Assembly: GCA_035529075.1 (NCBI GenBank)
Contig: DATKXK010000011.1
Location: 128,295-192,294 of the forward strand
Length of the DNA stretch: 64,000 nucleotides
Direction: 5' to 3'
From: Acidobacteriota bacterium
GTDB lineage: Bacteria > Zixibacteria > MSB-5A5 > GN15 > FEB-12
Below are positions 46,510-50,927 of this stretch, piece by piece; position 1 is the first letter of the stretch; the number at the start of each line of letters is the position of its first letter. The position numbers and the translations under genes are program-made. The notes beneath the pieces were generated by a model. The model searched no databases. It was not told the origin of the DNA and was given only the letters and a program-made list of their open reading frames with translations.

Positions 46510-47307
46510 CTATATGACCGCAGAGCCGGGCACGAATTCGAGAAGCTCGACGTCTCGTGAAGTGGTCGCAGTGATGATGACGGCGTTGCCAACCTGATGG
46601 TACACCAGGCGGCAGCCACGGCAGTTGTGATCGTAGAAGGTGATAGCGCCGATGGTTCTCGGGTTGGCCTTGAGCTCCTCGGGAATCTCGAACGAGTCGG
46701 CGGTGGCCACGAACACTGAAACGCAGCACGTGCCGTTGTGGTACACCAGGTGCGCCACCTCGGATCCCATCAGGTCCTCCGTGTGACCACCGGTCAGGTG
46801 GAAATCGTTCACCACCCGGTCGACACTGTAGCTGACATCAGTGTACACGCGCATCACCGACTGGGTGACGGCGACGGAATCCACATCGGTGCTCGGGTTG
46901 CTGAAAATGCTCCGGTGAGCCTTCTCCAGCGGGATCAGCATGGCCTCATGACGGCGAGCGCCGGAGAAGAACATGTACGCGGCGATCACCAGCACCAGGG
47001 ACGCCGCCGTGGCCAGGGCCCACGACAGCCGCATGAACGGCGGTTGATGGCGGGCGGGGACTGCTCTCTCGCGGTCGATGCCGTCCAACTGGCTGAGCAC
47101 TTTGGACTTGAGAACAGTAAGCCTGCTTAGGGAGTAGTCCGACTTGAGTCTCTCGTTGATAAGCGACTGCACGGACTCTTCCAGCCGGTAGATGTCGGTG
47201 CAGTGATGGCACTCCCTGAGGTGCTCCTGCACCCGTCGGACGTCGATTTCAGAGGCTTCCTTATCAATTATTTCATAGAGCAGTGCTAAGGCTTCCTGGC
47301 AGTTCAT
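46510..47307 (-). CDS. Membrane-bound anti-sigma factor with zf-HC2 domain
   Basis: 265 residues. The N-terminal zinc-containing anti-sigma (ZAS) motif is present as VQEHLRECHHCTDIY, that is H-x3-C-x2-C. One transmembrane helix (about 94-114, LATAASLVLVIAAYMFFSG) follows and the C-terminal domain lies outside the cytoplasm. It is presumed to hold the sigma factor encoded just upstream, since the genes overlap by 4 bp. The external domain has a CC and HNCRGC pair that might sense metal or redox stress; that is inference. Confidence 0.85.
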   Translation of the reverse strand: MNCQEALALLYEIIDKEASEIDVRRVQEHLRECHHCTDIYRLEESVQSLINERLKSDYSLSRLTVLKSKVLSQLDGIDRERAVPARHQPPFMRLSWALATAASLVLVIAAYMFFSGARRHEAMLIPLEKAHRSIFSNPSTDVDSVAVTQSVMRVYTDVSYSVDRVVNDFHLTGGHTEDLMGSEVAHLVYHNGTCCVSVFVATADSFEIPEELKANPRTIGAITFYDHNCRGCRLVYHQVGNAVIITATTSRDVELLEFVPGSAVI

Positions 47308-47891
47308 CTCGCAGTGTCCTTGATGTACCCATTCTTGACGGCATAATCAAACAGTTGCTTCTGCAGGAGTTTCCGGCCCCGGTGTAGCCTCGATTTTACG
47401 GTGCCGATCTGGATATCAGCAATGTTGGCGATCTCCTGGTACGAGAAGCCCTCAAGAAAGGACAGAACCACCACCAGTCGGAAATCGTCCGGCAGCTCTT
47501 CTATAGCTTTCTTGACGTCATCATCGAAGACTTTGGCAAAAAGCTCCTGCTCCGGGTTCTTATCGGGTCCAAGCTGGGCCAGCTGGCCGTAAAGGTAATT
47601 GTCATCGATATCATCCACATCCACCGAGACCGGCGCTCGTGATTTCGACCGGTAGTCATTGATGAAGATATTGGTCATGATCTTAAACAACCATGCCCGG
47701 CAGTTCGACCCTGGCTCAAACTTGTCCCAGTTTCGGTACGCCTTGACGATGGTTTCCTGCACCAGGTCTTCGGCGTCACTCTGGTTCCTGGTCATGCGCA
47801 ACCCAGTGCGGTAAAGGGCGTCCATGTGAGGCAGCGCCTCGTTCTCGAACACCTTCCGCTGGGCCAACTGCGTCGCTGTGCTACCGGGCAT
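47304..47891 (-). CDS. ECF-type sigma-70 family sigma factor
   Basis: 195 residues. Region 2 (about 20-90) has SDAEDLVQETIVKAYRNWDKFEPGSNCRAWLFKIMTNIFINDYRSK. Region 4 (about 130-185) has IEELPDDFRLVVVLSFLEGFSYQEIANIADIQIGTVKSRLHRGRKLLQK. It is probably controlled by the overlapping anti-sigma gene. A possible self-recognised promoter with an embedded palindrome lies 58-85 bp upstream. Confidence 0.92.
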   Translation of the reverse strand: MPGSTATQLAQRKVFENEALPHMDALYRTGLRMTRNQSDAEDLVQETIVKAYRNWDKFEPGSNCRAWLFKIMTNIFINDYRSKSRAPVSVDVDDIDDNYLYGQLAQLGPDKNPEQELFAKVFDDDVKKAIEELPDDFRLVVVLSFLEGFSYQEIANIADIQIGTVKSRLHRGRKLLQKQLFDYAVKNGYIKDTAR

Positions 47892-48256: not shown

Positions 48257-48649
48257 ATGGACCGGTATTATCTGATCTACGATGACTCCTGCCCGATCTG
48301 CCGGTCAGCCGCCCGGCAACTCGGGGCGCTCGACGACGCCGGTGCTGTAAAGCTCGTGCCGCTCTCTGCCCCCAGGCTCCCCGCCGGCATGTCCTTGCCC
48401 CCGCGGCCGGAGTTGGAAAGGGAAATACACCTGGTTTCAATCGACGGCTCGACGGTGACGGGAATCGACGCGGCCGCCAAGCTGGCTCTGCTGCTACCCG
48501 GAAGACGATGGGTCGAGCGGTTGCTCACGGCACCCGGCCTGCGCCGGATCGCCGGCCTGGTCTATGAGTTGATCGCCGGGCACCGTCAGGGACTCTCAAA
48601 GCTGTTTTTTCGCCAGCGCGGCTCGTCCAAAGGTGCGCGGCGCGTGTGA
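48257..48649 (+). CDS. DUF393/DCC family thiol-disulfide oxidoreductase-like protein
   Basis: 130 residues. DCC proteins have a thioredoxin-like fold with an N-terminal DxxCxxC. Here it reads YDDSCPICRSAARQL, near residue 8. The conserved later motif appears as GIDAAAKLALLLPG and a C-terminal helix. The exact function is not established. It faces recA tail to tail, 57 bp apart. Confidence 0.85.
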   Translation: MDRYYLIYDDSCPICRSAARQLGALDDAGAVKLVPLSAPRLPAGMSLPPRPELEREIHLVSIDGSTVTGIDAAAKLALLLPGRRWVERLLTAPGLRRIAGLVYELIAGHRQGLSKLFFRQRGSSKGARRV

Positions 48650-49749: not shown

Positions 49750-49998
49750 GTCAGCTTTGCCTTTCTGTATCCTGATTTTCCTGTTCGTCATAGCCGGTAT
49801 ACTATAGATGTTTGATCATGAAATATATCACATTCCGGTTGAAATTAAAGTAATTTCGGCCCCTGACAGGGGGTGTCACCGTGTGGCGGTCATCCCCGGT
49901 CCCGTACCCCCGGCGATTCACGGCAGAACCGTTCGCACGGCACACACATCGGCCCGGTCGGTCATGGTGAATGATTGTGCATAATAATGGTCTATTTT

Positions 49999-50009
49999 GT
50001 AACAATTAC
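49999..50009. promoter_or_regulatory. Inverted repeat, possible enhancer site
   Basis: GTAACAATTAC: GTAA and TTAC around CAA, part of the wider TTGTAACAATTACGA. It lies about 160 bp upstream of the predicted sigma-54 start, where enhancer-binding proteins usually bind. Binding is inferred only. Confidence 0.3.
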
Positions 50010-50136
50010 GAACAGCCTTGCATCCTCAGTCGCCGGACCCTCTGCGGAGCTACGGCGAGCTTTGCAGGCGATCACGTATCCCTTTGGCAACAAACGAGTT
50101 ATCTTGGGGCTTCAATCGTCGGCCTTTCGTTATCTG

Positions 50137-50154
50137 TCGGCATGATTATTGCAG
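50137..50154 (+). promoter_or_regulatory. Sigma-54 (RpoN) type promoter
   Basis: GTCGGCATGATTATTGCA: the invariant GG (50139-50140) and GC (50151-50152) are separated by exactly 10 bp, and flanking bases match the -24/-12 consensus (GGCA and TTGCA). The predicted start is about 60 nt before the GTG of the PEP-CTERM gene. Confidence 0.6.
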
Positions 50155-50222
50155 CGGTTACCTGCGGATAACAATATATGTGCATCACGACAACTATGAA
50201 TGACAGCAACGAGAGGTCCCCT

Positions 50223-50873
50223 GTGAAGAGATTACTCCTGATACTTGCAACCGGCCTGATGGTCGCGCCGTCGGTTCTGGCGGTGCCTCGGATTCAGCTT
50301 TATATCCCCGGAGCCACCTATGACATGGGTACCGAGACCTGGACTACCCCGGCGCACGAATTCGAACTCTGGGTGGTTGCCAGTAATCTTGACAAGGGGC
50401 AGCTCTATGACCTGACGCTGGTGGCATCGCTTGGCGCCGGTGGCAATCCCGTGGGTGGAGCGTTGTCGATCACTGACGCCTCGGCCATTACCACTACTTT
50501 CGGGATGGCGGATTACATGTACGGCACGCCCCCGCCGGGTGACGGGTCAATGCCGGCGCACGGTATCTATCCCTCCTGGTATGCCGAGCATAATGTTGCC
50601 GCCGTGACCGGTTCACCTTACGAGACGGTCATGGATTATACCGGCGACGGTGGCGGCTCGAACGCTTTTGGAAATATCTTCCGGTTTACCGTGAGCACTA
50701 CCTACGAGTACGTCCATTTTGATGCCTACGGTTACTTTGCCGACATAGACGGCCAGTTCAAGTTTGCACCTTTTTCACATGATGCTGAGACGGCGGTTCC
50801 CGAGCCGGCCACCCTGCTTCTTCTCGGTCTCGGATTGGCCGGGGCGGGGGTTGTCCGGCGTTTGAGGAAGTGA
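50223..50873 (+). CDS. PEP-CTERM sorting-domain protein
   Basis: 216 residues from the GTG at 50223, which has GAGAGG 6 nt upstream; an ATG at 50178 would delay the signal peptide. Signal peptide about 1-20 (MKRLLLILATGLMVAPSVLA). A beta-rich middle with Asp- and Gly-rich turns follows, then the C-terminal sorting signal AVPEPATLLLLGLGLAGAGVVRRLRK: the PEP motif, a hydrophobic span and an arginine cluster. Exosortase (EpsH/XrtA) would cleave and anchor it, but none is in the window. Regulated probably by RpoN. Similar to choice-of-anchor proteins. Confidence 0.92.
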   Translation: MKRLLLILATGLMVAPSVLAVPRIQLYIPGATYDMGTETWTTPAHEFELWVVASNLDKGQLYDLTLVASLGAGGNPVGGALSITDASAITTTFGMADYMYGTPPPGDGSMPAHGIYPSWYAEHNVAAVTGSPYETVMDYTGDGGGSNAFGNIFRFTVSTTYEYVHFDAYGYFADIDGQFKFAPFSHDAETAVPEPATLLLLGLGLAGAGVVRRLRK

Positions 50874-50898: not shown

Positions 50899-50927
50899 AA
50901 AAAGCGGCTCACCCGAGCCGCTTTTTT
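50899..50927 (+). terminator. Rho-independent terminator after the PEP-CTERM gene
   Basis: A 10-bp stem (50901-50910 with 50915-50924, AAAGCGGCTC and GAGCCGCTTT) with the ACCC loop and a run of T at 50922-50927. Confidence 0.9.

Follow-up and report, generated by a model that had tools for sequence, protein, structure and literature searches.

The closest described counterpart of the gene considered here is the PEP-CTERM/EpsH regulon of Proteobacteria, in which, in the portions of PMC1569441 drawn on here, single PEP-CTERM genes follow long upstream regions with a sigma-54 -24/-12 site (marked by its GG and GC) about 70 nt before the start and an upstream activator motif, in genomes that also encode an exosortase and EpsI. 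Among the genomes then at hand, those portions of Haft et al. (2006) place the sigma-54 motif, and PrsR likewise, in Proteobacteria alone, leaving other regulators and motifs for PEP-CTERM genes to be found. PrsR of Desulfovibrio vulgaris is DVUA0057, an NtrC-family regulator that bound PEP-CTERM targets (PMC3333781, in part), and the RpoN1-dependent pepA of Aquincola tertiaricarbonis, with TGGCAC/CTGCTT elements, is an experimentally studied example adjoining prsT in a strain with prsK and prsR (PMC9850573, in part). The locus described here resembles the proteobacterial regulon in each of the features listed above, its upstream activator motif being a candidate one, and resembles pepA in being a PEP-CTERM gene with a sigma-54 element. 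Unlike that regulon, its genome has no PrsR or PrsK; motif 1 of PMC1569441 as excerpted (17 nt ending TTTACA, mean spacer 62.8 nt) was not found, and a TGTGCAA-N4-TTGCACA palindrome occurs instead.

The window, meaning the whole 64-kb stretch of DNA analyzed, is C11:128295-192294 of a 3.04-Mb genome in 21 contigs with a completeness rating of 100%. Its relevant features, in window positions, are as follows.

49964 to 49985, no strand assigned: UAS1-like candidate activator site ATGGTGAATGATTGTGCATAAT, centered 163 nt above the sigma-54 16-mer.
49999 to 50009, no strand assigned: GTAA/TTAC repeat GTAACAATTAC, judged a chance occurrence.
50005 to 50026, no strand assigned: second, weaker UAS1-like site ATTACGAACAGCCTTGCATCCT, centered at 122 nt, 8.5 to 9.7 bits.
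50088 to 50105, no strand assigned: imperfect IHF-like stretch CAACAAACGAGTTATCTT between the candidate activator sites and the promoter, scoring 8.1 with a matrix that included it.
50138 to 50153, plus strand: sigma-54 (-24/-12) promoter element CGGCATGATTATTGCA, matching TGGCACGN4TTGCW at 10 of 12 positions.
50223 to 50873, plus strand: gene for a choice-of-anchor N, PEP-CTERM protein, GTG start, 216 amino acids.
50900 to 50927, plus strand: likely terminator, hairpin plus T-run AAAAGCGGCTCACCCGAGCCGCTTTTTT, read directly off the sequence and absent from the signal-scan listing.

The sequence-only reading had named this a PEP-CTERM gene, and the C-terminal domain bears that out, matching PF07589 with 32 bits (cut-off, 20.7) and TIGR02595 with 26.9 bits; the protein also matches the choice-of-anchor N model NF038141 (104.5 bits; cut-off, 40) and ends in PEPATLLLLGLGLAGAGVVRRLRK. 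By eye, GTG 50223 is the best start, followed by a signal peptide (VKRLLLILATG) and preceded by GAGAGG. The gene stands singly on the plus strand between a divergent recA and a LigT-type gene, where pepA of Aquincola adjoins prsT, and has nine clear orthologues in relatives (33 to 55% identical). Elsewhere in the window lie an ECF sigma factor adjoined by a zinc-finger anti-sigma-like gene (46510-47891) and a DCC1-like thiol oxidoreductase (48257-48649). As that reading had said, no exosortase or PrsR was found in the window; both exosortase genes of the genome lie outside it. One, at C11:87762-88520 (227 bits), shares the contig of the window gene and has EpsI beside it (C11:87.1-88.5 kb); the proposed search for xrtA/epsH succeeded here with the generic EpsH model (191.6; cut-off, 105.55) and failed with the XrtA model (197.3; cut-off, 208). 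An XrtH-type exosortase lies on C6 (93.9; cut-off, 86).

Sigma-54 sites were scored against the consensus TGGCACGN4TTGCW. In CGGCATGATTATTGCA the GG (50139-50140) and GC (50151-50152) are correctly spaced, so the GG-N10-GC element with good flanks recognized at 50139-50152 stands, with its end 69 nt, not 60 nt, from the GTG. PEP-CTERM matches were found in 78 of 98 genomes (own included, among the matches listed). Upstream DNA came mainly from relatives in the same family and order; among 107 different ORFs recovered by a tail search, 103 were scored after two that were not PEP-CTERM, one without a plausible start and one short of upstream DNA were left out. A site matching at least 9 of 12 positions lay upstream in sense orientation at 80 of the 103 genes (our three included), mostly 33 to 77 nt ahead of the start, compared with 2 of 103 in antisense; among the 23 genes without one, some misses reflect starts wrongly chosen by the script (e.g., L150 and L157). 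On this comparison, the proposed sigma-54 promoter holds, and most PEP-CTERM genes of the lineage have one.

Comparison between promoters also brings out a class of putative activator sites. In an unbiased dyad count over the 220 nt above the sigma-54 site of 70 non-redundant promoters, TGCA-N6-TGCA occurred in 19 promoters where 1.0 were expected, and 16 had GCAA-N4-TTGC where 0.85 were. The resulting palindrome, UAS1, was first fitted as wTGTGCAA-N4-TTGCACAw and, without our own genome, as AnTnTGCAAnnnnTTGCAnAnT. Under seven-fold cross-validation it reached at least 10 bits in 50 of the 70 promoters, compared with 3.6 expected in shuffles, with centers mostly about 90 to 122 nt above the -24 element (clusters at 91-94, 101-110 and 115-122). 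With the matrix trained without our own genome, the other two PEP-CTERM genes, both on C1, have UAS1 at 110 (13.6 bits) and 122 (11.8 bits), and ATGGTGAATGATTGTGCATAAT at the window gene scores 11.8 bits (p = 0.006 as the best in 250 nt), or 12.3 bits after retraining on PrsR-negative promoters only. The window-gene sites are weak, and the better one, ATGGTGAATGATTGTGCATAAT, lies outside the usual 90 to 122 nt; six of the nine orthologues (L184, L146, L165, L204, L195 and L169) have UAS1 at 117 to 120, near the position of ATTACGAACAGCCTTGCATCCT.

The core of the IHF consensus, CAANNNNTTR, is likewise frequent in the 85-nt stretches above -24 (25 of 70 in sense, compared with 4.65 expected, and 22 of 70 in antisense), and most sense-strand copies lie 30 to 45 nt upstream of the 16-mer; taken alone, the stretch at the window gene, CAACAAACGAGTTATCTT, is a weak candidate. 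PMC7962754, in the part consulted, briefly takes up what IHF does in the interval separating activator from promoter. The GTAA/TTAC inverted repeat, which the sequence-only reading had placed about 160 bp above the element, exists roughly 130 nt above it, but was rejected as an activator site: the window has one GTAA-N0-9-TTAC where 1.2 are expected, and 1 of the 70 related promoters has GTAA-N3-TTAC. It sits within TGTAACAATTACGAACA, which differs at four positions from a secondary motif found at other promoters, not a significant resemblance. The proposed search for the -24/-12 element plus this repeat upstream of other PEP-CTERM genes bore out the element and not the repeat.

A third palindrome, TGTTCA-N5-TGAACA, often lies near UAS1 (e.g., at L172, L192, L206 and our own C1:49 kb gene); with at most one mismatch it occurs in 10 of 62 PrsR-negative promoters (0.0 expected) and may point to another regulator. 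A lax composite search returned 49 matches in 10 genomes, compared with 9 for the reversed control; it recovered the window gene, missed the two C1 genes and also picked unrelated loci. In our own genome, C3:49588-49704 (L285) and C17:32627 (L284) have 11/12 sigma-54 sites with UAS1 at 95 and 81 nt and are possible further regulon members. Genome G011 has no PEP-CTERM matches; at L226 (G011:C6:131675) a 48-amino-acid ORF, similar to the start of the short (about 100 amino acids) PEP-CTERM family, lies behind a sigma-54 site and a UAS1 of 10.7 bits and appears to be a vestige lacking the sorting tail.

Our own genome encodes at least 15 strong sigma-54 activators among the 20 matches listed, and a scan of loci from this genome found a UAS1 of 16.6 bits about 45 nt below the end of one of them, the response-regulator gene C18:155980-157398. 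This NtrC-family protein has receiver, AAA+ and Fis domains, and two histidine kinases with GAF domains are encoded upstream of it. The UAS1 is followed by a sigma-54 site (9/12) and then by a 150-amino-acid GGDEF-like ORF that weakly matches diguanylate cyclase models and has no Pfam match. Since the matrix was built from PEP-CTERM promoters only, with our own genome left out, this link is independent of training. Orthologues of the regulator are found in 36 of 41 genomes, and comparison of 30 loci, our own included, places a UAS1 of at least 10 bits within 420 nt downstream of the gene in 26 (1.7 expected; the others are L298, L304, L308 and L313), nearly all of which then carry a sigma-54 site and the same small GGDEF-like gene. 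Neighborhood and co-distribution thus make the C18 regulator the candidate UAS1 activator. Phylogenetic profiling, which covered 18 of the 30 fetched loci, is not decisive because the regulator is retained in the PEP-CTERM-negative genomes G011, G034, G041 and G046; in G011 and G034 its orthologue has no good UAS1 next to it.

If the sigma-54 promoter and UAS1 are both correctly identified, UAS1 could still be bound by another of the 15 enhancer-binding proteins, several of which are conserved too, given that the C18 regulator is tied to it by position only. We regard this as unlikely, as none of the 14 other enhancer-binding protein loci of our own genome has a UAS1 above 13 bits (the nearest, L022, reaches 12.8 bits) and the C18 neighborhood is kept in 26 of 30 genomes. 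A TPR-AAA+ regulator on C11 (L026), first linked through the composite search, was set aside, its adjoining sigma-54 promoter having a different palindrome.

Two other sigma-54 sites were noticed in the genome. At C11:75236-75370 (L032:9236-9370; L251), directly below a sigma-54 site that is itself preceded by a TCGTA...TACGA palindrome, lies a short transcript-like stretch made up of TTGTCATTTTTACTCC, a hairpin, TTTTCTCTTTGGTG and a strong terminator. It is conserved in L235, L236, L227, L228 and L230, lies downstream of a TPR-AAA+-Fis activator gene in G011, G041 and our own genome, and resembles a small RNA dependent on sigma-54; six loci, five of them carrying the stretch, gave no Rfam match at an E value of 0.1 or below. 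At C18:143125-143140 (L133), the sigma-54 site CGGCACGCTCTTTGCA stands 48 nt ahead of an ORF that, from its sequence, looks like flagellin.

That CGGCATGATTATTGCA is a chance match and the window gene is read from another promoter is a far more remote prospect. Bare GG-N10-GC is indeed so frequent (489 on the plus strand of the window) as to be meaningless alone, and 3 of 197 other sampled genes of our own genome also have a site of at least 10/12 within 300 nt upstream. All three PEP-CTERM genes above the cut-off have one, however; the underlying sample comprised 200 genes called in sampled regions, 6 with such a site, 3 of those PEP-CTERM. Sites of this quality occur once per strand across the window, and an element matching 8 or more of 12 positions is retained, at a similar distance, in each of the window gene's nine clear orthologues. 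No sigma-70-like site was listed on the plus strand of the region. A narrower pattern, CGGCAYN5TTGCW, lies 49 to 69 nt ahead of the chosen start at all three genes and has 12 matches genome-wide, 9 of them away from PEP-CTERM genes, but it was picked after inspecting the three genes, and the later counts use TGGCACGN4TTGCW instead. RpoN is present (PF04552, 196 bits, C6:54255-54731), which, with the element at all three PEP-CTERM genes and its conservation in relatives, strongly supports the sigma-54 control in trans that had been proposed from the sequence; the absence of rpoN or an exosortase had been named as grounds for dropping it, and both were found.

The least probable reading is that this sigma-54 promoter is under PrsK/PrsR as in Proteobacteria, which has the known precedent of PMC1569441 and DVUA0057 (PMC3333781), as far as the excerpts go, and PrsR in 16 of the 98 genomes searched on its side, but against it an assembly rated complete in which both proteins are missing, TTTACA in 6 of 70 promoters where 12.9 are expected, and a PrsR-type palindrome (TGTC-N9-GACA) of just 7.8 bits at the window gene, although 12.6 at one C1 gene. 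In our own genome the best score for PrsR (TIGR02915; cut-off, 502.6 bits) is 442.2 among the 15 enhancer-binding proteins, and that for PrsK (TIGR02916; cut-off, 300 bits) is 109.9, covering the kinase part only. In the relatives, PrsR proteins group in a clade of their own, apart from the C18 regulator and 41 to 46% identical to their best match in our own genome, and control by PrsK/PrsR, as the sequence-only reading had suggested, was rejected on these grounds. Judged from that clade, DVUA0057 and the C18 regulator are probably not orthologous, alike as they would be in being NtrC-family regulators of PEP-CTERM genes. The TPR lipoprotein-like protein encoded next to one of the C1 PEP-CTERM genes was also rejected as PrsT (TIGR02917 not matched; YbgF/BamD below cut-offs).

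PrsR-positive relatives offer a comparison. The 16 genomes above the cut-off comprise 2 of 54 in our own family (own genome counted), 7 in family f2, none in f4 and 7 elsewhere in the class. Of 34 further regions fetched, 31 were PEP-CTERM upstreams; with older loci these gave 39 different ORFs, 2 of them short of upstream DNA, and 31 of the 37 scored had a sigma-54 site of at least 8/12. TGTC-N9-GACA occurred in 9 of 31 PrsR-positive promoters (0.13 expected) and reached at least 10 bits under cross-validation in 19 of 31 (1.1 expected). At the same threshold, UAS1 was found in 6 of 31 PrsR-positive and 48 of 62 PrsR-negative promoters, and TGTC-N9-GACA, with a matrix trained on the same PrsR-positive promoters, in 21 of 31 and 8 of 62 (Fisher p about 1e-7 in each case, four promoters of G006 and G009 being left out); PrsR status follows taxonomy, so lineage confounds the comparison. 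G009, a PrsR-positive member of our own family, carries UAS1 (18.7 bits) at one gene and TGTC-N9-GACA (19.1 and 11.2 bits) at two others. Our reading is of a single sigma-54 regulon served by alternative activators. On balance, we lean toward an exchange of activators inside a single bacterial class, with the regulon kept on sigma-54, in which PrsR lineages would use TGTC-N9-GACA and others TGTGCAA-N4-TTGCACA with a different NtrC-family phosphorelay regulator that would also drive the adjacent GGDEF-like gene.

For the window gene itself, we consider it probable that expression depends on the sigma-54 promoter, UAS1 and the C18 regulator, and not on PrsR. Comparison establishes the sigma-54 element, the UAS1 class and the pairing of UAS1 with a promoter beside the C18 regulator; we infer a chain of binding, phosphorylation, bending, expression and sorting. 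The gene would form a single transcription unit, with RpoN-polymerase held closed at 50138-50153 pending an NtrC-family activator. That activator, most likely the C18:155980-157398 regulator once phosphorylated by the two histidine kinases with GAF domains whose genes immediately precede it, would bind the UAS1-like sites at 49964-49985 and 50005-50026 and hydrolyze ATP to open the complex, with an IHF/HU-type protein probably bending the DNA between activator sites and promoter. Once exported, the protein would be sorted by the exosortase whose gene lies on this contig at a distance of about 90 kb.

No prior description of UAS1 or of an alternative activator was found in the open-access full-text literature, a scope with most subscription journals outside it. 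For a lineage that lacks PrsR, a defined alternative would consist of a sigma-54 promoter, a clear site for an activator and a candidate regulator that can be named. If true, the activator was replaced while the promoter class was retained, a naturally occurring example of regulatory rewiring, and the export of surface proteins would be tied to a GAF-domain phosphorelay and perhaps, through the adjacent GGDEF-like gene, to c-di-GMP-type signaling.
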